Assembly (NCBI GenBank): GCA_030141605.1
Contig: JAQGDQ010000040.1
Span: forward strand, 248,001-312,000
Reading direction: 5' to 3'
DNA: 64,000 bases
DNA from: Tubiluchus corallicola
Taxonomy: Eukaryota; Priapulida; Priapulimorpha; Priapulimorphida; Tubiluchidae
Shown here: positions 3,428 through 47,377 of the stretch, piece by piece
How positions within the stretch are numbered: the first letter of the stretch is position 1
Layout: every line of letters starts with the position of its first letter
Made by a program: the position numbers and the translations under genes
Notes under the pieces: generated by a model
Database searches by the model: none
Told to the model about the DNA's origin: nothing
The model's input: the letters and a program-made list of their open reading frames with translations, nothing else

Positions 3428-6400
3428 CTTCCCAGCAGGTCTGCAAAGAAACCCAGACACATGCACCCGATCATAGCACCCACAGTGTACAGGCAGGCAT
3501 TCACGGACCACAATGCTCGCAGGTGAGATTCTACCATATATTCTCCCCTGGTGGCGTTATAAGACTCATTGAAAAACTGCTCCAAAACCTAAATGAAAAA
3601 CAACATTATACATAAGTAATCCAAAATGCGAAGCATCGGATTACTTGCTTATTGAGTTTTTCTCTCCAACTGTCTGGCTATCATTTAGAAAACCAGTTAT
3701 TATTGTCATGGTCCGTTTCTTCATAAAATTCTAGTACATCTGTATATGAAGTAATGTGACGTCACACTATTAAAAACTGGAAAACCTACTACATAAAGAA
3801 CGAAATGAAAGCACAATCATGGTGAAACAGACCTCTTAATAGAACTACATTGTTAAGTGATGAACCTAAAAAGTTGGCCAACATCTCTGACTGTCACAGA
3901 AGCTTGTGACATCACAATTTTTAAATTTCAATCACTTTTTTATTTCATAGGAAGCGAAGAAACGAACCTAAGGAACGAACTACGTTTTTTTATAAATCTC
4001 ATTAAAAACAAGAAGATTTCTCAAGTTTACAGCACCAGAGGCATTTTATTAGAAGAATTATTGCTTGAGGTTACTTGATCCAAATTCAAAGGCCTGCATT
4101 CTGCATATGAAGTAGTTTTTGATAAATCACTGCATTGGAAATTGCTTTAAAATGACGCATTGCACACTGTTCCACAAAAAAGGACTCCATAATTTACACT
4201 ACTCTTTTAAAGATAAAAATTATTACATCACATACAACACTGACAAAATGAAAGCATATTTGGCACAGGAATTGTTATTGTTAACGACAGTGTTGATAGT
4301 TCACTGTATCACAATTTACTTATTCTTATGAGTAAATTTTAGCTGAGATAGGTGTGGCTTGACTTGACGACTATATGTTTTTCTGTCACCCCAACTTCTA
4401 AATTAGCCTTTTCACACTGCCAGCGATTGATGATGATCGTGAAAAGGTCAAAGGATAAGTGAACCTAACAACGTTAGTTGAACCAAACAACGCATTTGTT
4501 TACACTTGCAATGCCTCGCAGCCCATGCTGTTGTATTAGTAACAGTTCTTGCCGTTAATTTTCGCTTTAGTTTTTCATTTTACGGGGATCGCTGCTTCTA
4601 TTTTGCTAGCTGTTTTCGGATAAGAACAACATGTCAGCCTAAAACATTAGTGCACGTATAGTTTATAATAACAATAACCACGTGTTTTACCTCTTTTACC
4701 TGCATGTAGTTATGTATATAAGGTCATGTGACTATTGTAGTTAAGCAAGATGTGCTAGGCTCAGTTAACCTACAGCAACAGCGCGTGCGCATAGCAAAAC
4801 TGTGGAAACAGCTATTAATTGCAAAATTATTGCTCTACTTGTAACCTCAAAAGTCGTGAAAGTCATGAATAAATTTAATTGAATTGAATATAATGTCTCT
4901 ACTTACCTCTTGTGGAGGATTTATAACCACCATGTTATATCCAAATGGAAACGTTGTTCCTATGGTCACAATGATGGACGTAAATAGGAGCTGCCATGTC
5001 ATACCCTGTCAAATTAATTAAGTCAACTGTTATTTGTAAATCTTTTTTCCTTTTCCATTTTTTTATCTTAATAATGAGAACAAAGAATAAAACAACAATA
5101 TCAATAGCAATGCCAACTAGTTGTAAAAATGATAAATTTTTATGAGCATTAAATATTTATGCCTGAGTGTTTAACGGCAATACCCAGGGAACATCCTATA
5201 AATTTTTTACATCCAAATTTAAACTAAAAAGCAAGTTTGAACATCCAAGCGTCAAAATAATCCAAAAAATCCTTGGCTCAAATGTAAACAATTATGACTT
5301 TTTGCATCATTTTGCAATGCATTTGCAAGTTTGTTTTTTAATAGGAAATCATTTCGTGCATCAGGAAGTATGTTTAGCATGTATTACCTACCTGAAATTT
5401 GTTTCTAAAATAATCAGCAATCCCCATGATGTTTGTTGATGTTATCCGACAACGTCACTACCGACTTGTGCTCTTTTAATGCCTTTTTTCAGTGCAGCTT
5501 CTACTCTTTTTAGATTTGTTATCTGGAAAAAACAAGACAACCTATTTGTTATGTTTTTTCTATTAGTTAGTAACGGAAGTCAGCTATATTTTGTATGTAA
5601 AAAAAAGCAACTTGATTTCTTCACTGTTCACATATTTTATATCTGTCATGTTTCTGTACAGCATAGCTCAAAGCATCAATTGCGACTTTCATTGGGTCTT
5701 CTCAGATATTTTCCTTCAATGATGTTTAGCGCATTTAGCACGTCTCTCACATAGAACTGCTACAACAAAGTGGCAAAAAAAGCACGAACATCACAAAAAA
5801 AGAAGAAAAGTTGGATATACGATAACTACGGTGTTTTAGTCTAAGGAAATCTGTGGAAACACAGCCAATCAGCTAGAAATATAAAACCTTGATTGCAGGA
5901 AATGCTGCAGACCTTATGGTTTCAAGGGTGTAAACATGAAGAGAGCACGTCTTAACATTTGCTTGAATGGTTGTGGCAAATAGAAGTTTAAGCAAGACAG
6001 ACACTGCCAAGAAATGGTTAAGTAGAAGAACCGAAAAACTTGTCAGATAGAACACATAGTAACAAGGAAAAGATGGAGTTTGATGATAACTCTCTGTAAA
6101 GAAGAATAAAGAAAAATAAGACATTTTCACAGTATCTAACAATTAAAAAATTACTTGCATTTTGCCAACAGGAGGTTGTTCTTTTGTTTATTGTCTATCT
6201 GAAACTGAGCACTGTGAAACAACGCATGTACATAAATTGAAGTATCAAAAATCCAGGTAAAGGTACGAAGAAATTAGTAAATCGAACACATTAAATATCT
6301 TTCTGGTAATCAATGTCTAAAAACCATAAAATTGTCCAGTACCCGAAACTCAAATTAAATTCAAAATTAGGCATTATAGACAGCAACATTAATATTGTCC

Positions 6401-13334: not shown

Positions 13335-13868
13335 CTATGTAACCATAGATACAACTTTAGCTCTATTAGCTGCACTAGTGATACTTTGAGGCTGTTTTCC
13401 GCTTCTCCAGTCCTGAAATTTGCAGAAAGCATCGATGGCATAGACAATCATTGCCAAATATCCGAAAAATGCTGCTGCTGCCCAACCTTTTGTGGCTCCA
13501 ACAGTATCGAAAATAACAGCCAAATATGTTATACAAGCTGAGCCTGTCAGGAACAGAACTGTCCAAAGAAAGCAGTGAATAAACTCTACGAGGTACCACG
13601 GAGTCTTAAACAGGTATTCAATCACGTGAAACAAGTACAGAAGAAGCAGTATTGATGTCCACATGAGTGCTGTTAAAGCTACAAATTCAAAAAATGCGTC
13701 CTTTGGTTCTATGTTTACACCAACGATAACGCAAGAAAGAAATGCAAGGAAACTTGTCGCCATTTGTGTCAGTTTGAGGATTCCTGAAAACGTCCTTGCA
13801 TAACTAGGATCCCAGTATGGCTTGTGATCTTGATAAGATCTTGTGGTAGGCCTAGTTTGAGGCGCCAT
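13335..13868 (-). CDS. Four-helix MARVEL-domain-like membrane protein (177 aa)
   Basis: An intact 177-codon frame starts at the ATG at 13868. It has four hydrophobic segments at about residues 30-51, 58-82, 92-120 and 128-150, short loops, a polar N-terminus and a basic C-terminal tail. Charged or polar residues sit within helices (EF near 61, HxxEY near 81-85, EFIH near 95). This is the layout of MARVEL proteins such as the CKLF-like (CMTM) and plasmolipin groups, which act in membrane apposition and vesicle traffic. I assign the fold by topology and overall look, not by a decisive motif. A candidate splice acceptor (CTTCTTTAG) ends at 13890, 21 nt before the ATG, so the leader is probably spliced or trans-spliced. 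All coding sequence is in one exon; an alternative is another tetraspanning family. Confidence 0.75.
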   Translation of the reverse strand: MAPQTRPTTRSYQDHKPYWDPSYARTFSGILKLTQMATSFLAFLSCVIVGVNIEPKDAFFEFVALTALMWTSILLLLYLFHVIEYLFKTPWYLVEFIHCFLWTVLFLTGSACITYLAVIFDTVGATKGWAAAAFFGYLAMIVYAIDAFCKFQDWRSGKQPQSITSAANRAKVVSMVT

Positions 13869-13889
13869 AATTATTTTGATCTTCTTTAC

Positions 13890-16386
13890 CTAAAGAAGTA
13901 AAAATGTTGTAAATTTAATCCACGTGTCCATGCAGTCCCTGAAAACAAACTTACGAAATGTAATAAAGTAATGAGTATTTTAAATTTGGGTCTTAAATCG
14001 TTAAATTGATTCGATCTGACGCATCATTAAAATAGTCAATTTTTCCAATAATACTTATAAGATAAAGGTTTACAATGAAACAAAAGCAGTTCCTAGAATA
14101 CATATTAGCTGCGTTACACATTTCCCGCAATAGGAGAAATTAGTATAATACCTCTATAATTATTTAAATGTACAAACCTCGGGCTAATCAGAGCAATAGA
14201 TTAACAACCATGAAGCAGCCATGTTCCACATTAAACATTCCTCAGTTTATACTCAGCTCAGCACATTCAGGCAGGATGCATCTACCACACGTGTTAGGTT
14301 ACAAAAGACTGGCATGTATTTCAGGCGTACATGATAACATTACCATGCCTTTTTCATGTGTCATGTACATATAGCTTAATTACATAAATTCAAAATAAAG
14401 CAGAATAACATCGTTATGTTGGTTGATCGTTTTACGCAGGATACTGCTTCATTGCTGGAAATTAATAGCTGCTGACGCGTTTCCGCTTGACTGTTTGTCT
14501 GTAGTTTACGCCTTCCCCCAGTTTCACTTTCGAGAATCAAGATATTCAAAGCTTCGTTTTAGCTCAGCAGTGAAGCCGGTTAGTCGTACTATGCCAAAAT
14601 CTACCACTTACTCAACAGCTTGTTATGTAATTCGTTGGTAATAGTTAATATATAGAATAATGATATATAGATTAGTTAATATTATAGTTAATACATAATT
14701 ATTATTTGTTATTTATTACTTTACTACGATGCACCACCCACCGCTGGTGAAGACCCGCCAGCATTACAATAGATTTCAACGCATATAGTAGCTTTTGACT
14801 TTTGAGGCACCCTAGATCATAGCTGACATAGTTGTAGCTGCATTGTCCTAGCTGTAAAATGATGTAGCTGTATTACTTATTGTTTAATGTCTTACTCTGA
14901 TCCAGAAAGGTGTTCACGTAAGGTGAGTCTAAAAGGTGATATTGCGTTTATCTGATAAGGTTTATAGACTTACGTGATAACGCAGCTATGTGCTTTATGT
15001 TAAGCAAAATACTAGCATTTCAAAATAATACTCATGTACTTTCACGATGGCACCGCTGCCCTATTCGTCTCACAATGATACGTAGGCCTGCAGCCACTTT
15101 TATCTGTATTTGCGACTTTTACGCAATCGTCGGATGAAACGGCTGATTACATCATTAGAAATGGATAACCACATTCATCTGTCTTAACTGGTTACGAATG
15201 CTCGCCCCCTTTTCATAGTATCGTATGTAATCAATTACCGAATGCTAATGCATTAATGCAAATAGTATCAATAATAGTGTACCTACCTATAAAGTACGCA
15301 GTGTTAGAATTTAGGACAGGTGGCTTATATTTTAACGTTTGTTGTGAAATGTTACTTCGTGAAAAGTTTTTGTATAATTATGACGTCATAATTGTGAAAT
15401 CTAACAATAAATTCTAAAGAAATTTTAGTGAACATTTAAAGGTATAGTTTTCAGACATTACGTAAAAAATACGAAATGCCATATAAAACTATTGTCCATC
15501 AAACCCACAGTCATGTAAACTCAGAAACTACTGAAACTTATCTGGAAAAGTTACAATTCAAAAACAACAACTGGTAAATAGTTACGTGTAGGCTGAAGTG
15601 CAGGAACGAGTTAGAGGACGAATGTCTCAGAAACAGCACGCTAAATTTACTGAAATATTCGTACGTGATAGTTTACATGTTATCATATCGACAGAGGTTA
15701 TCTTGAAAGCTCTCGCCTGTTGGTGGATTTAAATTAAGTGAGTCTTGCAAGCATTGTCAACGAGTAACTAGTGACACGTTCACAAGTATCCGGTTGCAGT
15801 GCTGCCACTTCTGCGGTTGCGCGTTTCATCCGGTGACACAGCATACTTTTCAGTATATACTTTAGCTTACGTGCGAAAGACAATATGCTACAAAGAACTA
15901 CTTCAACATCTTGCAACTGTTAAGCAAACAGAAAGTGTTCAGGTTGGCCAAAATTATATTATATATTGAACATATCTATTGAACATCATTACAATTAAGG
16001 GTACACACTTGTTGTTCAGTAGCCAGCAAAAATGTTGGTTTGACTTGCAAACTACCTGGCCAAATCAGTGGCAACATTTTGCAGTATTATCATGAACGTG
16101 TTAACTGCCGAATCGTTAAATAAATGTTGAACCACATGTATCATATCCATCGCACGATCAGAATCTACATGCGTAACTTCTGAACTTCAACATTAAATTT
16201 CGTACAGTAACACAAAAATGACAACATATTTTTGCTAGAGCAACAAGAAAACAGTAAAGCTGATCAATTGCCGAAGGTGTTCTCCTGACGATGAATGAGA
16301 GGGGACATGCTATATAAAAATATGACAAAAATGAAGAAGAAGCAGTAAACCAGAGGTAAAAATTACTATAAGAAGCCAAGGGAACG
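13890..16386. other. Intergenic, no gene recognised
   Basis: Only short AT-rich frames are present. One perfect TGACGTCA octamer lies at 15381-15388, about 1 kb before the coiled-coil gene. Confidence 0.5.
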
Positions 16387-17838
16387 ATGAGAAGAAGCAC
16401 ACAGCACGAAATAATAAGTCTGAAATATCAACGCGGCATTAAGCAAAGAGAAAAGGAATTTTTGAAATTTATGAGGGCGCAGTCGCATCGATCAACAACA
16501 AGAAACATCAAAGAAAGGGAAGATGTTTCACCAGACTCATGTGAGAAAACAAAACAAGCAGCACAACGAGAAAAACCATTAATCAGAAAAACGGGGAAAA
16601 AAGAAAAATATACAAGTGCCACAGTAAAGAAAAAAAGTGGCAATAAGAGAAAAAGCCGGGGTACAAGTAGAATGACAGAAACAGAAGAGAGAGTTGATAC
16701 AGCAAAATCGAAAGAACATGAATTTCGCCGTCTGCAGGTAAAGGAGATGAGAAATTACATTAAGATGTTTAAAAAGAGTAAAGCAAAGTTATTTAGTGAG
16801 TGTGTAAATATGGCGGAAGAGCTGCTGTTGCAGGAAGCGAGTGCAGCCAGGGAATCAGTGACAATACTGAGTGAATACGATCGACGTGAGGATATTAAGA
16901 ATGTCGCAGAAGCAATTTTTGACCATCGACATAAATCCGAATTAAAAGAGTTGAAAAGCGTGGAAGATAATATTGCGCAGCAGATAAACAAAGAACGTCA
17001 AGAAATGGAAGAACTAGAAGAAAAAATAAAGACAGTGTACTGTGATATCCGCGAGGCAAAGATGCACCATGATACAGGTAATTGGGATTTAGAAACTTTG
17101 ACCAAAGCGATGGAAGAAAAACTGTCCATAGGAAAGCAACTGCACAATCATCAAGAAAGAGCATTTATAAAAGTTATTGACCAACAACGAAAGAAAATGA
17201 TGAATAACACATGCAGCATTGTAGACAAATTAGCCGAAGATGCAAAAACCAATATATTACAAAATAAAGACAAGAGAGATTTTTTTTTACTACTGAATAA
17301 GTTAACAAAACGAAACCGCCGTTTGGTAAAAGAGATAAATATCTGCAGTGAGGTAGTATGCGAATTGTCCAAAAAGGTTCAAATTTTGCAACAACATCAC
17401 GACCAACTGACAAGGCAACTTGAGCAAAAACAGCAACACAAAAAGTCTCATACGATGAGGCTGAATTGCCCTTCTGAACAGTCTGATCGTAAGACAAAAC
17501 CCGACTGCATCTTTCATTCCAGTGAGGTCCAGAATCAACAACAAGAACGTCAAATGGACATATTACTATTAGAAGGCGCGCTTCAACAAAAACACTTTAA
17601 GAACATCCAGATACAGGTTGCTGATTCAGATTCATGGCATATCTCGCCGCCTCACAGAGTTGTTGATAGCTATACTATGACAACATCAAAAGATGAAATT
17701 ACACCAGCGCAGAGTTATTGTTCAGAGGACAATGCTGATGATCTTGGAAAAAGAAACGATGAAGATCAGTTACAAGAAGAGAAAGATGAAAGTGAGGTGA
17801 TATTAAACATCCCCAGATTCGAAAAATTTCGTTTTTAA
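16387..17838 (+). CDS. Intronless coiled-coil protein, function unknown (483 aa)
   Basis: An uninterrupted 483-codon frame starts at the first ATG after an in-frame TAA at 16366-16368. In AT-rich DNA this length cannot be chance. Residues about 1-105 are very basic and polar (KKKSGNKRKSRG). Residues about 105-370 are rich in Glu, Lys, Gln and Leu with heptad-like spacing, for instance the RQEMEELEEKIK stretch, and should form a long coiled coil. The last 60 residues are acidic, then end in a short PRFEKFRF tail. There is no signal peptide or membrane segment. The style recalls ciliary or basal-body coiled-coil proteins of the DUF4515 type, but I see no motif that proves it. Other genes here are split by many introns, so an intronless gene suggests a retrogene or a fast-evolving lineage-specific gene. 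Confidence 0.8.
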   Translation: MRRSTQHEIISLKYQRGIKQREKEFLKFMRAQSHRSTTRNIKEREDVSPDSCEKTKQAAQREKPLIRKTGKKEKYTSATVKKKSGNKRKSRGTSRMTETEERVDTAKSKEHEFRRLQVKEMRNYIKMFKKSKAKLFSECVNMAEELLLQEASAARESVTILSEYDRREDIKNVAEAIFDHRHKSELKELKSVEDNIAQQINKERQEMEELEEKIKTVYCDIREAKMHHDTGNWDLETLTKAMEEKLSIGKQLHNHQERAFIKVIDQQRKKMMNNTCSIVDKLAEDAKTNILQNKDKRDFFLLLNKLTKRNRRLVKEINICSEVVCELSKKVQILQQHHDQLTRQLEQKQQHKKSHTMRLNCPSEQSDRKTKPDCIFHSSEVQNQQQERQMDILLLEGALQQKHFKNIQIQVADSDSWHISPPHRVVDSYTMTTSKDEITPAQSYCSEDNADDLGKRNDEDQLQEEKDESEVILNIPRFEKFRF

Positions 17839-34917: not shown

Positions 34918-37900
34918 CTAGACTTTATTTTCTGCACTTTCATCTGGCTTAGATTTGTCATCAGCTTCGTCAGCAGCATCACCAGCACCTTTCAATGGGC
35001 TCGTCACATCTCCTTCCTCGGCTGCTTTTTTAGCCTCTTGTTCTTTCAACCACTTGGGCTTAAATTCATTAACGATATCATCAATAGGCCGTCGTCTTGT
35101 CTCTGGCAGGTATAAATAGATGTAGATAAACAAAAATATCGAGCAGACAGCATAGATCAAGAAGACATATGAGTGGATGACCTCTTTGAGATCCAGGAAA
35201 GTGAGACCCACAATAAAGTTGGCCGTGAAGTTGACCATAAATGACAGTGAGACTGCTTTCGGACGGGCATTCTCCTGGAACAACTCTGGTGTGATCATGA
35301 AACAGATTGTAGCTGGAAGAAAAACAGTGTATTAGCAAAAGCAAACTTGTGATATATTACAGGGAATAGAATATGTGGAGTGCAGTAGTTAAAAAGAATG
35401 TAGTGCATCAAGCGATTTATGATTAGAAACAAGTATTCCATTTTGTAAAACACTCAAGTGCTTTGTGTCACCTAGGGTTGAAACTATAATATGCAACAAG
35501 CCAATACATACTTCACTTGTAGCAAAATTCTAGTGAAAAGTATTTCAGTGTAGTCAATAACAAAAAGAAACTTATATTTATTTTATATACATGTAACAAA
35601 AAAACCAACACCTACCTGGTCCAAATGTGTTGAAGGCTATATAGACAATCGTGAACACGATTGTCAGGGTCCTCATGTAATCATAGTCAGGATTATCCTG
35701 GCAACAGTACAGAATATTTTAGCATGTTAATGTATATTAAAATCATTATTACATACTATGCTTGCAAAGGAAGCCTCAACTTATCATTGAAGTGATTTGT
35801 CTGCAAGTGAATGCTACAGTTCATATGATCTGAGACCCAGTTTATGAAAATGATTCTTCTAACAGTTGACTTTTTCAGTATAACTATGAACACAAAAAGT
35901 CAACACAAAAGACACATGTTGTGTTCAATAAATTATTCCAAGGATGTTGTACAAAAAACTGGCGAATTCTTAAATAACTAATTCATCTTATAAGAGCACC
36001 AATTCCTTAACTAACTAGCTTTTGATACAGTCATTTCATTTTCATGCATGAACTTATAAACTGAAACAATAGTCTGAGCAACTCAACTAAATTTTGAACA
36101 CGTAACACCTGATAATGTTAGACCTTAAACACCTATATGGCAAATGGTAACCATTTTTTAGCTAAACTGATGATAACATGTGATGAAAAATTGTGAAAAA
36201 ACATAGAAATTGTAATTGTTGTTTCAGACAAAGTCAAAGAAAAAAGAAGAAACTTTCATACTTGGAAATTCTGATGCATGGTCACTGTCAAGAGTATGAG
36301 CATAAGTGCCTGACCAGCAATTCCGACAAGCTCAGGTAGACGACGGCCAACTTTTTCAATGGTGAACATGCTGCAGAGATTCATAATGACCTTTACACCA
36401 CCGATGCCCAGACTAGCTTTGGCAGACTCGCCATAGTCAGTTCCACCAGAGCTAAAAATATGGGTAGAAAAGTACAGCACCTGTAAATAAAAACAGAGTA
36501 CATTATTAAAATGTAAGACAAACTGCAAAAGCAGCTATAAAATAGGTTTATATTGAAGGAAGTTTATTTTAAATATGAAAGTAAAAGAAAGAGCACAACT
36601 CAGTATACAAGTTGGAGTACCTAAGTTTTGGATTTACCTGCAAAAATGACAAGTAAATATGATATACCTATTAGGACAGAATTAAACACTTAAGCTTATA
36701 TACTATAACCACAATCTTGACAAAATTATAAGTGCACTTCTTTCAGAATCTTTTGCTGGTGACACAAACTGAATTCATGTGTTATTCAACATAAAAGTAG
36801 TATATTTACTTTACTGCCAAGACAAAAGCATTTAAGGCTACCTTAAAGTCAAACTAAACCCGCACTATAATAAAACCTTTTACAACTTAAAATCCTACTG
36901 TCATTATGAATATTCAATTTATTTTATTACAAAGTTACTGTAAAACTTGTTTCTTTTGATTTTTTATCATTTCATTGTTAGCGGTATTAAATTTGAAGAA
37001 CCGCAATTTTTTGTTACGCGAGATGAATGGTGTTATGAGTACAGTCACAAGGTCACCAAAGATCGGTAAACAAACATCGGTAACCACAGACACTTACTGT
37101 ACATCATACGTCATTCTTGCTCACTCGCACCAAAAACATGGTAATCTTTACGGTAATGCATGCATTTGGAATTCCCCAGAAAAAGGTAAGTTACTTAATT
37201 TATAATCTCTTTTTTTAATAATAACTATGAGTTCTTTGTGTAACCATAATAATGAGTTAAGAAAACTTCAATGTCTGTTGGCGTTAAATACAGGCCTTTA
37301 AATGTAATGCAATCAGCAAACATAATGAATGGAGGCATTGCACACCAGTTAGACGACATTTCAGCAGACGTTATTAGAGACACAGACATAGACACAAACA
37401 TGTTTACTGAATCATCGATCTCTTCTAATACACATTTACAAAGCTAAGTAGGTATCAGTTTTGTTTAGCAACAAATAAGCATGCAGTGAATCTATCAATC
37501 CTGCTTATCAGATTGCTCCCAAACTCACAGGAATAACACCTCCAAGTTGAAGAGACAGATGCACAGCTAGGCTGACCCACAGCGCATTACGCAATGTTGG
37601 ATCTTTGATGATTTCCCACATTGATAGCTAAAAATACAAAATGATGGTGACAAAAGCTTGTACAAAATACAAAATATTGCAATTTCTAAGCAATTATTGT
37701 AAATTATTTCATTAGAAGACAGTCCTAATGCACTTACATGTCTAACATGTTTCTGTGCCTCAGCTTCACGTCTGAGTTCCACCAGTTCAAATTTCAGATT
37801 TTCCTCTGTCGTATTTCTATAGAACTTCAGTGCTGAAATATAACAGTTTTTGAAATTAATATTACTATTAGAAGCCAATGTTAAAAAAACTTAGCAAAAT

Positions 37901-40900
37901 CAGCTTTTGGCCATTCCAGCAATTAGTTGACAGTTATTGACATAAGACTATGAGCCAATATAGAAGCAAACATGCATGCAGTAATTTTAGTGATAAATGT
38001 AACATCCAGGGGCATAGCCAAATTCTAAAGTTAAGGGGAGCAAGAAAATAAAAAATGTGTCATGACACATATGAAACAACTTTTAACATATTAGTTACAC
38101 ATTTTAATTTTGTGTTCAAAATCAACACACGAGAAAAATATAGCTGTTAGTTTGTATTTAAAATTAAAGCACAATAAAAAGTTTTACAGTAGGCTCATCA
38201 ACCTCAAAACAGCGAAAACGTGTGTGTTATTTAATTATTTTAATTTTAAACATAAAATTGAAACAAAATGAAGCACTGTAAAAATGTATCACGAAGGAAC
38301 TGCAGCAGTCTGTTTTGTCTAGACTTCATTCTAGGAAAGTAATCTAAAACTTTATTATAATCCACCTATATACATGGGAAGCAGGTTAGTCAAATAAAGT
38401 TGTGACAGCAGAAAATTCTTCCAAGGTCATGCGATTAAAAAAATAAAAAAGATTCGACTTTTATTACCTGAGTGAACTAAAGAGTTAAAAAAGTTATTGA
38501 AAAGGCGCCAATTTTGAAAAATGTGCTCCAGGGAGCAGATGCTCCCCTTGCTTCCCTATTAGCTACACTACTAGTAACATCTTGCCATGTTAAATGTAAC
38601 CATCTCAAATGAAACATTTTATTACTTAAATTTAATATCGACAAACATATTAGGCCTACACTCTTACAAACTGATACACGAAATATATGTATAACATTCC
38701 AGTAATATTTTATATTAGTTTTATTAACACAGGATAGGACATTTTCACTTAAAATAAGAATGATTGCTAGAAAAATATACTTCCAATGCTACAGTGAAAT
38801 GCAGTTCATGCAAGGAATCTTATTAGTGCATGCAATAATTATATTAATAACACAGAAACTCTCACCTTCTATAGCCTTTGATTCTCTTTTTGCATTATCA
38901 TTAGTTGGGTCATCTGCATGCAGCAGTGGACAGATAAAAAAGAAATTTATTTCCGACAGGACTAACATGCACTAGTACTATCTATAAGTTCAATAATAAG
39001 AGAAATTAATGAAACTTTTGTGACAGCATAGATAGAAATGCAGTAAAACCTTGCGAGGCACATTCCTTAGTACGTATTAATACAATGCAAATGTGCAAAA
39101 TTTTATTACGATAACGCTGTTAATCATTAATGAATCTGTTACAAGTTACAGAAAAGATCAACACCAATAGCAGTATTACCAGAAACAAGCATTCCACAAT
39201 TTTCTGAGAACAATGTCATACACTTAGTCTATTAGTTTTATACTAAACTTTTTACCATCTGAGAGTAAGATGGTTCTAAAACAGAATGTAATACACTAAA
39301 AGCACAAACTGAGACAACAATAGTTTATTTCTAGCTGCTACAGCATTTGACATGAAATATAGAAAAGGTAACAATATTAAAGCACATCTCTTTGCACATT
39401 TTTAGCTTTTATTAATAACATGCTTGTATCACATCATGTTTCTCTGAAATAACGTATTTTTCTATTCTGTTAATACGTGATATTTGTCTGTTCCAAATAC
39501 TTTTGGATGCTTTTTGGTAAAATATATATTCAGAGTTGAAATGCTGTCTTTTACAAACTTTATGTTAATTTGCACTGTCATCATGACTGTTTTCTAATGA
39601 CATATATACATATATAGGCCTATATATATATATATATATATATGTCAAATTATTATATACAGTGACAACTAACAGTTCAATAGTCTAACAGGGATTTAGT
39701 TAAAGATATTAAACAAGCATGATAAAGCGAGTTTACTGACATTCATAGTAGCGCATAAATATCTCTCATGACTGAGGAGGATCTAGGTTACACAAATCCA
39801 GTTACTGAAACTGGTAAAAAGCAAGTGGCTTGTCATGCTTGTTCAAATTCCAGTTTGATAAAATGTCAAAGATACATTAATTTAATTACTAATAAATTCA
39901 GTTAAAAACTAAATAACCTAAGCCAGCTAGTTAAAAACTAAAATATATATTTATTTAGACTTATAATTGATCACTTGCAGTAATTAACTTACATGAATCT
40001 AAATAATCTGCATGACATTAGTCACATTGTCATAAAAACTACAGTCCTATATTGCGATCAGTCGTACTTATATTTGCAAAAGGAATAGTTGGCTGTTTAC
40101 CAGTCATGCAAGACTAAGGTTTGATGTAAACATTTCTGATCAAATAAATGAGATTGCATTTTCAATCTAGGTTGTTGTCAACATCTCAGCCAGGTATATA
40201 TAAGGAGATCTTTCTTGCACACACATAACTACTGTCAGGACAAGTGTTTTGCTTCATCAGTGTGTGAACGAACAAATCTTGACCATTTTATAACAACTTC
40301 ATTAAGTTTGAATCAAGTTGGTTAAATTATTTTCATTAATTTACTGCATACTACTAATAGCAATATGTCTCAAGTACGTCAAAATTACCATCAGGAGGTT
40401 GAAGCTTTTGTTAATAAGCAAGTTCACCTGGAGTTGTATGCAAGCTATGTCTACCAAAGTATGGTAAGTGGCACATTAATATTCACTTTTCATAAATAAG
40501 TTATTCGAACAGTGGGGGTTTGACTTTGTTTTGCTTTTAAATAGACTATTGCTCCTTGATTTTTAGCCGAGGTCTTGTATTTTTAAAGACCATGCTTAAC
40601 AATTCTTTGTTAGGCCTATATGCTTTTGTATACCTCAAATGCTAAACATATACCTGAATATACCTAAATATACCTGAAATATATATATATATAAAACCAT
40701 CTCTATATAAATCTTTATTTAGATAAATAAAGCATAAATAAAAGGTATATATGCCAAACCTTCAGAGTGTTGTATGCATTGAAGATTAATATCTTTATCT
40801 GAATTTGTCATTTTAATTTACTTTTTTAATTTGACACTAATACTATAACATAATGACATCAACCAATTTGTTCCTATCGATAGGCATATTATTTTGACCG

Positions 40901-43900
40901 GGATGATGTCGCATTCCCGGGATTTCACGAGTTCTTTGCCAAGAATAGCAATGAGGAACGGGAACATGCACAAAAGCTTATGAAATACCAGAACCAACGT
41001 GGAGGAAGAATTGTTCTACAAGGCATACAGGTGAATTTAAGCCATTTTCTTTGAGAATTGATAATCACCTTCAATTACAAAATTCATTCACAGGTGACAA
41101 TGAAGTAAATTTGATGTTTTTTTATTAAGACAATTTATAACCGGATGTATAAGTTAACTTTCGAGTCGTTTATAATTTTTTTTATTACTATGCTAAGTAT
41201 TATAACTGCACATATACTAAGAATAAAAATGCATAATAAATGAAATACAATATGTAGAAAGTGCTACGCACAATCATCAACCTGAATCATTGTAGGTGTC
41301 ATATAAAAAATCCATCTACTTATAATTAAATTTCAATATCCACTTTTCCTAACCTATAATTGTGACTTTTTCCTAAGTCTCAATCTATAGACGTTTTCCA
41401 TGAAGAACTGAAGCAGCACGTAGCAAAGATAGAGTGCTTAGTTGCATTAACACATTCTTTTTATTCAAACAGAAGCCGGAGAAGGATGAATGGGGCACAC
41501 CACTCCAAGCGTTGCAAACAGCACTGGAAATGGAGAAAAATGTGAACCAGTCCCTTCTGGACTTACATAAACTAGCAAGTGATCACAGCGATCCCCACGT
41601 GAGTTTCTTTCTCACTTAAATCACTTCTTTCCTTTCTTAACTGTTTTGAACAACTACATTTCTGTCTCTCTATTGATGACTGCAACTTAGAAGTAACTGT
41701 GAACAATTATGATGAGTATTTTGTCTTCTTACAAGTTCAAACAGTTTGAGTTAAAACATATTGAAAAAGTTTGTTGGGATAGGTTAGCTATTGATAAGTT
41801 GTGATTATTATATTCGATTTGCATTTAAATTAAAAATATTGTATTTCTGAAACCTATAGGTAATTTAGTATTTCTGCATGTGTGTGTTTTATGCATTTCA
41901 GTGTTATTAGTGTTTTTTGTGTTACAGGATTATTAGTAATGTTGTTAAACTCATAAAAGTGTAGCAAATTATGAATGATACTGTTTCTGTTTCAATGTTG
42001 TAAATGTTTTTTTTCAGTTTATTAAAGCAACACTTTACAGCGTTTCTGGAGTGTTCTCTATCTCTTTCTGCCACTTCCTTCCGCCCCTATCTCTCTCTAT
42101 TCCAATCTCATATGGTTAAAAAAATTGAACTTGAACGCTACAATATTTTGCATTTTGTAGAAATATTTTGCCCAGTACAAGTTAATTTTGGTTAAGCTTT
42201 ATATATACTCATTACGTACATGGCTTCACTTATTCAATTATCACTTTATTTCAGCTGACTAATTATCTTGAAGATGAATTCCTGGATGAGCAAGTAAAAG
42301 CAATAAAAGATTTGGCTGACAAGATTACAAAGCTGAAGCGCTGTGGCTCTGGTTTGGGAGAATATATATTTGATAAAGAAGACATGAGCTCTTAGGAAGC
42401 TGCAAAACAACATATACTAGGAGACAATAGTTTGACTGATGTCATCTTATTATTTGGGTACCTACTAAATCCTAGCTATATGGAGTGAAAATAAATTGAA
42501 AATTTGAGATCATATTTTATTCGTGTTACCTGTGTAACGTTTAGTAGATACAGAATGGACTGTTGACACAGTTTGATGCAATTACGCATTTGTACATTGC
42601 ACATATTTTTCGTGAAAAAGAGGCACTTATTAGATGAATTCAAAACAAGTTTTTAAAGCACTAAAATTTGCTTATATGCAAACATGGCATATGGGAATCA
42701 ACACGAAAACAAATATAGTGAGGAAAAAAATCCAGAAACAGCTGCTGCAGTTTGTTAAACAGCGCATACATTTTTCAGTTTAACCTACTTTCTCAAGCTT
42801 GGCCATATACTGTAGAAAGAACTGCCTTTAATAATGTTTGGTTTAATTGTTCTCAAGGCATTCATAATAAATGCAAGAAGCGAATTATCTGTTGTTTTGT
42901 TATAATGCAAATTCAAAGTTGCTTTACTCTTGAAAAGAAAGTTTCAGTGTATGTGATCATATTATATGCACAAAAGTAGTACTAAATTAGAAAGTCCGAA
43001 TAACTTTACACCTCCACTAAGTGATACAAATTGTAGAATGCTCCAACAGAGTAACAATAACACTGTGACAGTTAGACACTGAATCACTTAGGACATCACA
43101 AAATATATGACAGACAAGATAAAGAATCACTTAGGACATCACAAAGTATGTGACAGATAAGATAATGAGTCACTTAGGATATCACAAAGTATGTGACAGA
43201 CAAGATAAACAATCAGTGAGGACATCACGAAGTATGTGACAGATAAAGAATCACAGAGGACATCACAAAATAGACATATTACGTACTGTAACTACTGTTA
43301 TATCATATATTTCCACACTATATTAATACTTTGATAAACAACAATTCACAGTGTACATATTAAAACTATGCACCATATTATATTAAAAAACGGTATGAAT
43401 ACAAGAATTCTGCTTTAGGTCAGCCAATGGATGAATGGGTGGACATCTACCATACTGTCCAGCTATATCAATATTTACCTTGCTGAAATTCCAAAAATTC
43501 TAAGACAGTTCGAAGACATTAGTGTCTTAACATGAACTATAAGGAGTACCATACAGCATCTTATCATAAGGACTATCCTCGATAATGAGGTCTCTAGTAC
43601 TGCTCTAGTCAGTTACATTAAGTAGCCTTCCCACTAAGTGCTGCATTCCGACTTGCAGGTAGTGCTGAATACCAGTTTGCAGAGTATCAAATTGAACAAA
43701 AACAAAAAAGTAAAAGTTGTGCACAACTGATGCTATACATTTGTACCTTCCAAAGCTCTCTGCTCATCATCCTCATGGCACAATAGGTAACGAGGGCTTT
43801 CATGAGCAAATGGCAGTGCACACAGCTGGAAGAAGCTGGTAAAAGCCGTCATACCTACGAGTAACATGTCATTACATATTATTGAAATGTAGATGCATTG

Positions 43901-46900
43901 GTAGTTACTTGTTTACTAAAATATTAGTCATATATAATTGTAATTACTCAAGAATGGAATGTTAAACTACACAAATTTTGCGATATGGCATGATACTGTT
44001 TCCAATGATACAATAACAATAAACTATTTTTTAGACAATAAGATATACGATACGATAAATTATTTTAATGACAAAAACGATACTGAAGTTAGACAATTTG
44101 TGTAACAACGGAATTAAACTTAAATGGTTGCTATAGTTATGAAACACAAGTTTGTTTGTCATAAATAAATAAATAAATAAGTAAAGCTGTGACAGATAAA
44201 CATATTACCGCCATAAAAATATTTATCCTTGCAAGCTACAAACATGACCGGGAAAAAGTGACACTAAAATACGGTACATAGTATGTGACATCCATGAGTC
44301 AGTATCAAAGTGTATAAGGGGTCACTATACTTTGTCAATATGATTCAGAAAGATGATAGCCGTTTTTGCCAGGGGAAGTACAAGAAAATGATTCTGTGTC
44401 TGACAAGTTTATAATTTTAAATAATTCTTTTGATTTACTTCATTGGATAATTACTGTAAATAAATAGGAAAGTGAAGTGATTTTATAAAGGTAAGCGATA
44501 AGCAATGATACACACCAAATTCGATATGATAACGATATTTCTAGAATAATATCGATACGATAACAATCGAAACAAGTTTTTCATATCGATACAATAATCT
44601 GCAATTATACTAAATGAAGAATTGTTCAAATTCAATTAATTATTTTCTCTATTAATAAGATTTAGAGAAAAAAAGCTAAAACATTAATTACTAATTCATA
44701 AACAAAAATATTAACAAGCTTACAAAGCAAGAGTGGCCATTGAGCGTCAGTTCCAAGTGCTTCTGGAAGCCCCAGGAGCTGGGAAATCAACATGGACGTG
44801 GCAAAACCGAATTCGTACAAACCACCCATGGCACCACGCAAATTACGCGGTGAAATTTCCATAAAGAATATGGTTGCCACTGATGCAAATCCTATACACA
44901 AAACCAATTCACTAAATTCATTCATTCACTTAATCAATTTGAAATCACTATAAAATGAGTAAATCATTAATAAAGTGCAGACACTGATCAACTGGTCACT
45001 TAACTACCCCAAAACAGCTAACCTTCCAATGTGTATAAACAGCAAATCAATTAGCCAGGCTAATCAGCCAACCAACCAAGCAATCAAGCTTTTTCAAAAA
45101 AGAGACACTCATTTAAATACCCTTTAAAAGAATGTTATTCAAAAATGTGATTTATATATAGCCTGTATTTCCTTTTGAGTCAGAACAACTAATCAATTTT
45201 GTAACAAAATTGTGTTTAGAAGAAGGGCTTCTTGTATAATTGACTGAACCAATTAAGTAAGAAATCATTGTCGTAGAAGTTAAAATGTGTGTACAGCTGA
45301 TAAGTTATGCACAATAGCTTACCTGCAGCCATGCCAAATACCAGACGACCAATAATAATCATCTCATAAGACATGGCAACTCTAGACAAGCCCATCATTA
45401 AGCAGCCCACGAATACCGTAATGCTATTGCCCATCATAGTTTTCTTCCTAAACCAAGAAAATAATAAGTTTATTGCTAACGAAGGTACTATATCACTACA
45501 TTATAATAAAAATGTTTGACAGGTAGCAGCGTTCAGTTCACAGTGTCTAAAATATGAAGCAGATACGCAGGTACCATGCGTAAAAGCACACAAGCTAACA
45601 TGAGTGGAAACAAATTCAATTTCACAAATGAATGCTATGAAAAATTGAAGTTCTTTTCTTGCAGCTGTTTCTACCATTAGACCTAACCTTACACATTAAA
45701 TGGCTGAAACAATTTGTGAGATTGTGTGATAAGACTAGGCAGCAATGATAATTTCCTTTATAGTTGCTCCACAAAGGCGTTTAATTATAATTTTGCTAAT
45801 GGCTAGTTGGCAGCTACAGCAATTTACACAATACAACACAGCACAATTCATTACAAAAGCACTGAATAAATAGGGTACTTCGCAACACAGGCTTAATCCA
45901 TTGCCTTTCTCAAACAATTTGTAATTATTATTGTGCATAGTTTAGTCGTTCATTGTTTTAAGAAAAAAATAAGGTATTAAATTCGCAACAGTTTTATAGT
46001 TACCTGCCGAACTTGTCTGCCAAATAATGTGTAACAAAGCTGGCTGTGAGAATACCTATAGAGTAGATAGCTGCAGTAAAAGACCATAAAGTTCTAAACA
46101 TTGCTTCCGGCATAATGGCACTCTCATTTCCTTGGCGAGAAGGATAAGATTCGTTTCTGTAAAATTTCTCTAAGACCTAAAAAAAGAACAGAAATTAGAA
46201 AAGTATCTCATTTACCAAGTGATAAATAGCAATGAGAGATAGCGATAAATGATTACTCACCCGTTTAGGATTATTGATAACGACCATATTGTATCCAAAA
46301 AGAAAAGTAGTTCCAATGACAACAGTGACTGCAGTAAGAGCCAACTGAGGTGTCATACCCTACACAATACAAAATAATAAAAAAAAATACTTTGCAGAAT
46401 TGAACTTTGTACCAACAAAGACGTTTATTTTAAAATTTGTAATGTGTTAAGAATCTATACAAAATTTAACAGTACTGCCACATTAATTTGACGTTGAAAA
46501 AAATTGAAAATCTGAGAGGTGATGGAATACTGAAAATCAAATGGCCCTGGTTCAAATCCACACTCAGTCCTAACTTTTTTCACATTTCCACTGCTTTGAA
46601 CAAGACTGGTTTCATACAATTAATAACTGCGGGTTCGTTCCATCACTGAATGACGATTTTATAATTAAGGTTACAAATGATAAGTTAGCAGACTTGTAAG
46701 TTATTTTGCTTCGTAATCCTAAACACATTTGCTTTTTTATTTAGTACAACTGAAGGTGCTTGTTACAGATGACCAGTTTAAACTTAATGAACTGTTATCA
46801 AGTTCAATGGTGTGCATGTAAAAAGCTAACAGCACATTCTAAGATCTGTTTTTTGGTTGACTTCTGTAACATTTTCAACAGTTTTAAGTCCTTCAACACA

Positions 46901-47377
46901 CCAACCAGATATGTTGAACTGGCATTTTTAACAATATAATGGTAAACCACACCTTGATTTTTAAATTTTTACTATACGAAAAACAATGTTTCATCTACTA
47001 GTAGTAGAATTCATCAGGTTATTCAGATTCATCATGTTATTCATCAAGTTATAACTAGAACACACAAGCTAATGACTCCTTTGCCATTATGTTATTAAAA
47101 ATGAAGAAATAATAATTTTTCTAAATTATGACAAGGTCCTATCCCTCACTCATTTGCACACCTGATATCGCTGTTTGATTTGAGTTGACACCTGTCTGGA
47201 CATTCTTCTGATGTTGCCTCGAGCTCTCTCTATTCGAGATCCTGTCGATTCTGTTCTGGGTCGCATTTCTGGCAGTTCCTCCTCCTCCTCCGGCAAGGTC
47301 TTTGGCTTTGAGTTCTTGGGCGGATGTTCCGGACCCATACGATGATGGGGCACGGGGGCAATGCTCATTCCGGACAT
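34918..47377 (-). CDS. GLUT/SLC2-like transporter copy B, complete, with altered substrate-site residues
   Basis: Coding exons in order: 47162-47377, 46261-46359, 46004-46176, 45323-45447, 44724-44891, 43747-43854, (cassette 38866-38913), 37738-37832, 37529-37627, 36262-36480, 35616-35697, 34918-35312. All introns are GT-AG, phases agree, and without the cassette the product has 592 residues. Family marks seen: FGYNMVVIN in helix 1, ADKFGRKK after helix 2, IIIGR in helix 4, EISPRNLRG (216-224), [14 protein letters not shown] after helix 8, PELF after helix 10, and LPETRRRP after helix 12. Exofacial loop 1 has two NES sequons. The N-terminus is long (72 residues, with a Glu run and a basic [11 protein letters not shown] stretch) and the tail is charged (KAAEEGD to the end). 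Relative to human GLUT1 the sugar-contact positions Gln161, Gln282, Asn288, Asn317, Glu380, Trp388 and Trp412 become Glu231, Leu354, Ile360, Lys391, Thr458, Phe466 and Phe490. Membership of SLC2 is firm; glucose transport is doubtful. Confidence 0.93.
38007..38573. mobile_element. hAT-like MITE (567 bp) with 8-bp target duplication
   Basis: The element starts CAGGGGCATAGCCAAATTC and ends as the complement of TAGTAGTGTAGCTAATAGG, with further inner similarity (AAGGGGAGCA on both arms). The 8-bp word GTAACATC flanks it on both sides (37999-38006 and 38574-38581). A CAGGGGC(G/A)TAGC terminus plus an 8-bp target duplication is the mark of the hAT superfamily. It encodes nothing and lies in an intron of GLUT copy B. 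Confidence 0.72.
38866..38913 (-). CDS. Predicted 48-nt in-frame cassette exon of GLUT copy B
   Basis: On the minus strand a pyrimidine-rich tract ends in GCATGCAG, followed by 48 nt and a GTGAG donor. Entry and exit phases (2 nt in, 1 nt left over) are those needed between the exons at 43747-43854 and 37738-37832. The exon would insert 16 residues, [16 protein letters not shown], into the large cytosolic loop between helices 6 and 7. Its end (ESKAIE) resembles the end of the preceding exon (EQRALE), so it may be a partial exon duplication. Skipping it restores the usual GLUT loop length, so I read it as alternative rather than constitutive. It could also be a chance pseudo-exon. Confidence 0.6.
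39600..39644. repeat. (TA)n microsatellite with AGGCCT interruption
   Basis: CATATATACATATATAGGCC is followed by about 11 TA units, in the GLUT copy B intron and 0.6 kb before the ferritin promoter. Confidence 0.9.
40195..40204 (+). promoter_or_regulatory. TATA box of the ferritin gene
   Basis: TATATATAAG lies 170 nt upstream of the ferritin ATG. A start site about 30 nt downstream (near 40227) would put the IRE roughly 20 nt from the cap, the spacing needed for translational control. Confidence 0.6.
40247..40272 (+). promoter_or_regulatory. Iron-responsive element (IRE) in the ferritin 5' UTR
   Basis: The site fits the IRE consensus: unpaired C at 40252, a 5-bp upper stem (TTCAT 40253-40257 with GTGAA 40264-40268, one U-G pair), the CAGTGT loop at 40258-40263, and a lower stem of at least four pairs (40248-40251 with 40269-40272). 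The first C and the G at position 5 of the loop, which pair across it in known IREs, are present. In iron-poor cells iron regulatory protein binds such an element and blocks ferritin translation; that is family knowledge, inferred here from sequence and position. Confidence 0.9.
40365..42395 (+). CDS. Ferritin, H-type cytosolic subunit (four exons, 170 aa)
   Basis: Exons 40365-40463, 40884-41030, 41473-41598 and 42255-42395 are each flanked by GT-AG introns in phase 0 and give 170 residues, the usual length for animal ferritin subunits. The product is the iron-storage protein that forms a 24-subunit shell and oxidises Fe(II) at a di-iron site. All ferroxidase ligands of human H chain are present: Glu23, Tyr30, Glu57, Glu58, His61, Glu103 and Gln137 (human Glu27, Tyr34, Glu61, Glu62, His65, Glu107, Gln141). 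The motifs LYASYVY and EEREHA are intact. There is no signal peptide, so a cytosolic form is expected. The gene lies wholly inside the 4.8-kb interval between GLUT copy B exons 43747-43854 and 38866-38913, on the opposite strand. It has its own TATA box, IRE and AATAAA, so it is a nested independent gene and not a pseudogene. Confidence 0.97.
42490..42495 (+). terminator. Poly(A) signal of the ferritin gene
   Basis: AATAAA lies 95 nt after the ferritin stop codon, on the sense strand, the expected place for a short 3' UTR. Confidence 0.7.
43081..43273. repeat. 43-bp minisatellite, about 4.5 copies
   Basis: The unit GAATCACTTAGGACATCACA...GTATGTGACAGA.AAGATAA repeats with few changes and the last copies are shortened. 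It lies in a GLUT copy B intron, about 0.6 kb past the ferritin poly(A) signal. Confidence 0.9.
46500..46590 (+). mobile_element. Possible tRNA-like SINE remnant in a GLUT copy B intron
   Basis: GGTTCAAATCC (46553-46563) is a perfect B box, with a weak A-box-like stretch (GAGGTGATGGAATACTG) about 40 nt upstream and a T run after it. No cloverleaf is visible. Confidence 0.3.

Follow-up and report, generated by a model that had tools for sequence, protein, structure and literature searches.

A tandem pair of SLC2 genes with a rebuilt hexose site and a Glu/Lys pair in the predicted cavity of the priapulid Tubiluchus corallicola

In GLUT1, glucose is held by a hydrogen-bond network in which Gln161 is the one N-domain residue and Asn317 is among the C-domain residues (PMC7462842), and in GLUT3, Gln159 on transmembrane helix (TM) 5 and Asn315 on TM8 are described as contacting one and the same inhibitor ring (PMC9098912). 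Transport by GLUT1 is reported to be more than 50-fold lower in Q161L and more than 10-fold lower in Q161N (PMC4412407), and in GLUT5 the Q166E substitution decreases fructose binding and reportedly improves glucose binding (PMC7462842). Single charges occur naturally at both sites: GLUT7 (SLC2A7) has Glu at the Q161 position (PMC7462842), and the urate carrier GLUT9 (SLC2A9), in which E364A weakens urate binding, has Glu at the N317 position (PMC11169512). Here, we describe two tandem SLC2 genes of Tubiluchus corallicola in which Glu and Lys occupy the two sites together. Gene A is located on the minus strand at 34918-47377 of the window, that is, of the 64,000-nucleotide stretch that was analysed (C1820:248001-312000, from a contig of a 343.5-Mb assembly), and its sister, gene B, starts near the left end of the same window. 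At a probability of roughly 0.5, we read A and B as working SLC2 carriers in which the hexose site had already been remodelled when the two genes split and has been kept since.

The cavity of gene A was compared with that of known transporters by aligning 15 sequences with MAFFT: mammalian GLUT1, 3, 4, 5, 7, and 9, genes A and B, and, from the same genome, two further divergent paralogs (genes C and D), the four canonical paralogs, and an intronless copy. At the GLUT1 positions Q161, Q282, Q283, N288, and N317, gene A has E231, L370, Q371, I376, and K407, and at E380, W388, N411, and W412 it has T474, F482, N505, and F506. An earlier note, made from the letters of this DNA alone, had named the same nine residues, with Gln283 and Asn411 as the sole survivors and seven replaced, on a gap-free register around the family motifs; phmmer against the sequences in PDB (GLUT1, 3, and 4) and the MAFFT alignment with GLUT5, 7, and 9 concur on this register. 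The numbering in that note holds up to residue 297 and is 16 too low beyond it (its Lys391 is Lys407), because a 48-nt exon at 38866-38913 had been missed. In gene B the residues from Q161 to W388 are E, L, Q, I, K, T, and F, with M and Y at N411 and W412, so that within the hexose-site signature drawn from PMC7462842 and PMC4412407 (Q161, Q282, Q283, N288, N317, E380, and W388) Q283 alone is kept in both genes. Both differ from all four canonical paralogs at Q161, Q282, N288, and N317, and in none of the six aligned mammalian GLUTs is N317 replaced by Lys or N288 by a hydrophobic residue. Judged from these sequences, the replacements in gene A exceed chance, because gene B shares them at 50% identity (over 491 residues) and with saturated synonymous sites. 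The loss of E380 is a different matter: the four canonical paralogs have A, G, A, and A at this position, which rules it out as a special mark of gene A. One canonical paralog also has C at W388 and another F at W412. Of the three prolines in TM10, P385 and P387 are lost from gene A and P383 is kept, a correction to the view that the helix-10 prolines were gone altogether, and in genes A to D alike TM4 is one residue shorter than in GLUT1, with Thr at P141.

Class I GLUTs (GLUT1, 3, and 4; SLC2A1, A3, and A4) are 34-37% identical to gene A and share with it the fold motifs, the N45 glycosylation site, and the gating salt-bridge residues, but not the seven replaced hexose-site residues, the shortened TM4, or the loss of P141, P385, and P387. 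GLUT7 shares the Glu at the Q161 site, but is only 32% identical and retains Gln282, Gln283, Asn288, and Asn317. GLUT9 resembles gene A in its charge at N317, in Phe at W388, and in the loss of E380 (MAFFT; PMC11169512), whereas its charge is Glu rather than Lys, Q161 is replaced by Ala, and N288 is kept. The Schistosoma mansoni transporters SGTP2 and SGTP3 are likewise fast-evolving class I relatives that have been argued not to carry glucose; unlike in gene A, the hexose-site residues are present in SGTP2, and the available part of the source mentions no Glu/Lys pair in either protein (PMC4653847). The single charges thus have precedents in GLUT7 and GLUT9, and their combination, kept in a tandem pair, appears to be new in the limited set compared. 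A literature search for related cases listed no paper on a Glu-Lys pair at these two sites, which is not proof of its absence in print.

Gene B was detected by tblastn of gene A against the window, which revealed two further exons at about 5 and 3.5 kb, on the strand that also encodes gene A. These are exon 2 (4907-5005) and exon 3 (3428-3588, the last inside the window), both placed by tblastn and spliced alignment. Exon 1 (5392-5427) was read by eye as 12 codons before a GT donor and inferred from an intron position common with gene A, giving a short N-terminus ahead of the TM1 exon. The gene continues past the left end of the window, which contains its first exons only, to C1820:239797. In the spliced alignment its frame is open and its introns have the same phase and nearly all the same places as those of gene A, except that one is shifted by three residues in a gapped loop before TM10 and that exon 7 is extra in gene A. 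No SLC2 copies beyond gene B were seen in the sequence flanking the window, of which 60 kb on the left and 40 kb on the right were covered.

Whether the shared cavity reflects selection was addressed with 23 cavity positions drawn from published descriptions of GLUT cavities (PMC11169512, PMC9098912, PMC7462842). A residue of gene A was counted as new when it was not seen in seven canonical GLUTs, namely GLUT1, 3, and 4 and the four canonical paralogs. Gene B keeps 13 of the 14 new cavity states, compared with 57 of 172 elsewhere (p=1.4e-5). Within approximate TM ranges, 13 of 14 cavity states are kept vs 42 of 110 at other TM sites (p=9.6e-5). A cavity list of our own had earlier given 14/15 vs 56/171 (p=4.9e-6), and was set aside for the literature list because it was drawn up after viewing the alignment. 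The same test gave p values of at least 0.15 for all control pairs (C-D, A-C, A-D, B-D, B-C, GLUT5-GLUT7, and the canonical pair C1738-C1691). Over 492 aligned codons, the nonsynonymous divergence between A and B is 0.40 (dN, NG86) and the synonymous divergence 2.8 (dS), with synonymous sites saturated and 49 of 113 four-fold sites in agreement. At both charged sites the codons differ synonymously while the residue is kept (Glu GAA/GAG, Lys AAG/AAA). As far as sequences can tell, this speaks for a remodelled pocket under selection and against decay, as had been proposed for gene A alone.

The assignment of gene A to the GLUT family is supported by its matches to PDB sequences (47 distinct phmmer matches at E <= 0.001, the best being GLUT4 at 2.1e-84 and GLUT1 at 3.3e-82) and by the family profiles Sugar_tr (PF00083; 298.8 bits, cut-off 22.3) and NCBIfam TIGR00879 (254.7 bits, cut-off 237.8). 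Sugar porters are described as carrying the sugar porter motif in both halves (P208ESPR and P453ETKG in GLUT1), as well as the A motif in both halves (PMC7898563). The former is found as HESPR and PETRR in gene A and as KESPR and PETKG in gene B, the first Pro of the N-domain copy being lost and the key Glu at 209 kept. The latter reads D-K-x-G-R-K and E-K-x-G-R-R in gene A, with His for the first Gly, and in gene B Leu replaces Arg/Lys at 89. An N-glycosylation site in the outer loop between TM1 and TM2 is reported to be a trait of class I and II GLUTs (PMC2890515), and both genes have Asn at N45 followed by E-S. A and B also retain the Arg and Glu residues of both inner gating salt-bridge networks that PMC6071613 describes in sugar porters, together with R126 and the ESPR Glu, so the claim that the scaffold motifs are retained was borne out. 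Proton-coupled symporters of the XylE and GlcP type pair an Asp in TM1 with an Arg in TM4 (PMC6071613). This pair is absent: genes A, B, and D have Asn at GLUT1 N29 (gene C is not covered there), although the Arg at R126 is kept. In established alignments, N29 is the position of the symporter Asp. A bacterial or phage origin was rejected, given the introns and the lack of a relative in GTDB and IMG/VR contigs for the alignment of A, B, and D; this search is uninformative on animal orthologs, because these databases contain almost no animals.

To place the pair among its relatives, the intron-bearing SLC2 loci of the genome were rebuilt, some of them N-terminally incomplete: C1512 (gene C), C246 (gene D), and C1738, C1925, C2019, and C1691, the four canonical paralogs, which retain Q161, Q282, Q283, N288, and N317. 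In a maximum-likelihood tree of 14 sequences and 456 columns (LG+F+G4; class III GLUTs left out), support was 98.4/98 for A with B, 94.7/95 for C with D, 100/100 for A to D together, and 95.6/92 for A to D with C2019. The position of A to D relative to the class II GLUTs received 52.1/64 in this tree. Genes A to D have in common the TM4 deletion, T at P141, F at I164, L at Q282, T at P385, and the ITPELF motif. Genes C and D differ from A and B in keeping the Trp at W388 and in their residues at sites 161 and 317 (Glu/Asp for gene C, Gln/Asn for gene D). A search for relatives with both charges, suggested in the earlier note, thus finds them in gene B and not in C or D. On these sequences, the Glu/Lys pair marks the A-B branch only, because C and D lack the Lys and D also lacks the Glu. 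Glu161 may have had either one origin with a loss in D, or two origins; the origin of Lys317 is, given these genes, on the A-B branch.

Two observations on further SLC2 sequences in the assembly were made along the way. An intronless copy at positions 1501-2682 of C579:16897-21078 is identical to the C1738 gene at 349 of 379 residues; it is stop-free, yet has Arg at Q161 and W388 and looks like a retrocopy losing function. Weak additional matches were found on contigs C427, C1714, C1812, C544, and C2307.

Judged by sequence, both genes are likely to encode a working carrier, or at least a carrier-like protein, with a site that is not of the hexose type. The cavity that they share has Glu on TM5 in the N-domain and Lys on TM8 in the C-domain, with Leu, Ile, Thr, and Phe standing for Gln282, Asn288, Glu380, and Trp388. 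The side chains of E231 and K407 would be near and face each other over the domain interface, since in GLUT structures one and the same ligand is reported to be bound by the residues at the equivalent sites. By this analogy, the odds that they form an ion pair in some state are about even, and a charged or zwitterionic substrate is a tentative proposal at best. The ion pair would close the empty cavity, a substrate that is probably polar and charged or zwitterionic, not a hexose, would compete with it and break it, and the rupture would let the usual rocker switch proceed. Doubtful is the further idea that the two genes are founding members of an SLC2 subgroup for charged or zwitterionic small molecules, whose empty carrier is latched by a Glu-Lys bridge between the domains in mid-cavity, where other GLUTs rely on the sugar, until the substrate breaks this bridge and so starts the switch. 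The switch itself is probably intact, because the gating-network residues, R126, and the ESPR Glu are kept.

Several points weigh against reading A and B as carriers rebuilt and held under selection around the charged pair. Counted from gene B, the test is weaker (13/18 vs 57/169, p=2.0e-3), and when it is limited to sites conserved in the canonical GLUTs, p is 0.0005, 0.013, and 0.056 at conservation thresholds of 0.5, 0.7, and 0.85. The excess of conservation in the cavity is clear in the alignment, yet seems partly due to the general constancy of such sites. The wider clade of A to D does not keep the pair, and the loss of P385 and P387 from TM10 of gene A might hamper gating. GLUT9 retains some glucose transport with Glu at the N317 site (PMC11169512), and Asn317 (Asn325 in XylE) is described as a negative control with no direct effect on substrate binding, which argues against a central role of this site (PMC4653847).

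Some of these points also suit the view that A and B are facilitators of a neutral hexose, polyol, or related sugar with a shifted preference, as in GLUT7 and GLUT9; the Glu and Lys of A and B would then do no more than adjust hydrogen bonds. The natural Glu of GLUT7, the reported gain in glucose binding of GLUT5 Q166E, and the residual glucose transport of GLUT9 despite Glu at N317, Phe at W388, and the loss of E380 all fit it, as do the retention of Q371, and of N505 in gene A, and the deviation of two of the four canonical paralogs at W388 or W412. However, Q161, Q282, N288, N317, and W388 are changed jointly in A and B, GLUT1 loses most of its transport in Q161L and Q161N, and the six mammalian GLUTs show neither the Lys at N317 nor the hydrophobic residue at N288, so that we consider a neutral-sugar facilitator unlikely. 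Still less probable is a GLUT-derived sensor or non-transporting regulator (transceptor), comparable to Rgt2 and Snf3 of yeast; the Rgt2 sensor is described as having arisen from a glucose transporter (PMC6071613). The loss of two inner-gate prolines from TM10 and of a proline from TM4, the missing TM4 residue, and the 72-residue N-terminal tail and charged C-tail of gene A would fit such a protein, but the gating salt-bridge residues are retained, and the N-terminus of gene B extends just 12 codons ahead of the TM1 exon. A paralog that has no defined function and is under relaxed constraint or in decay, suggested by fast divergence (gene A is 35% identical to GLUT1, the canonical paralogs 44-49%) and by the loss of glucose transport argued for SGTP2 and SGTP3 (PMC4653847), is very improbable with the frames of A and B open, dN well under dS, and both the cavity states and the scaffold residues kept.

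Gene A itself is intact, with a single open frame in 12 exons that all have GT-AG borders, a coding length of 1827 nt including the stop (608 codons), and zero internal stops. On the minus strand, exon 1 (47162-47377) encodes the Met start and the cytosolic N-terminal tail, exon 2 (46261-46359) TM1 with an FGYN motif, and exon 3 (46004-46176) the outer TM1-2 loop with two N-x-S sites, TM2, and the N-domain A motif. Exon 4 (45323-45447) runs from TM3 to TM4 and holds the conserved Arg at R126; exon 5 (44724-44891) covers TM4 and TM5 with E231 and has F at I164 and M at I168; exon 6 (43747-43854) encodes TM6 and the ESPR motif. Exon 8 (37738-37832) encodes intracellular helices, exon 9 (37529-37627) TM7 with L370, Q371, and I376, exon 10 (36262-36480) TM8 and TM9 with K407, and exon 11 (35616-35697) the first half of TM10 with T474. 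Exon 12 (34918-35312) extends from the second half of TM10, where C481 and F482 stand at P387 and W388, through N505, F506, and the PETR motif to the charged C-tail and the stop. Exon 7 (38866-38913) is the 48-nt exon mentioned above. It has AG/GT sites and phase 1 at both borders, but gene B has no counterpart, so its use may be optional or its prediction mistaken. The frame is open with or without it, since 48 is a multiple of three; the earlier claim of an intact frame therefore stands, and its count of 11 exons becomes 12 if exon 7 is used. Intron 6 contains a tandem repeat with a 43-base unit at 43074-43245.

The same intron holds, on the opposite strand, a complete ferritin gene (40365-42395, plus strand, four exons, 170 codons). 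Its best PDB match is 5wpn (3.1e-77), presumably a marine worm ferritin. A hairpin resembling an iron-responsive element is located 5' of the ferritin start (40244-40277, plus strand) and scores 30.4 bits with Rfam IRE_I (E 3.8e-5 in 251 bases), which falls short of the gathering score (34), and shuffled versions of it fold with energies at least as good. Elsewhere in the window, a one-exon open frame at 13335-13889 on the minus strand encodes a MARVEL domain (Pfam PF01284, 50.3 bits), and a 488-codon open frame at 16372-17838 on the plus strand is rich in charged residues and has zero Pfam matches. Contig C1761 (873,888 bp) looks bacterial within this animal assembly and would represent a symbiont or contaminant: of 14 PF00083 matches from a scan of the assembly, 13 lie on this contig as open frames, mostly in a tandem group, and one protein encoded there shares 51% identity with a gammaproteobacterial metagenome-assembled genome. 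Searches of the assembly gave no match for COX1, molluscan haemocyanin, or innexin; for the last two the negative carries little weight, since the control genomes likewise yielded none.

What a GLUT can carry is usually inferred from some ten residues of its cavity. A tandem pair in which most of these residues were replaced together and then kept would be a natural re-design of the GLUT site beside canonical copies, and hexose uptake in this animal would not hinge on A and B, because the four canonical paralogs retain Q161, Q282, Q283, N288, and N317. If A and B do carry a charged solute, few steps would be enough to turn a sugar uniporter into another carrier.

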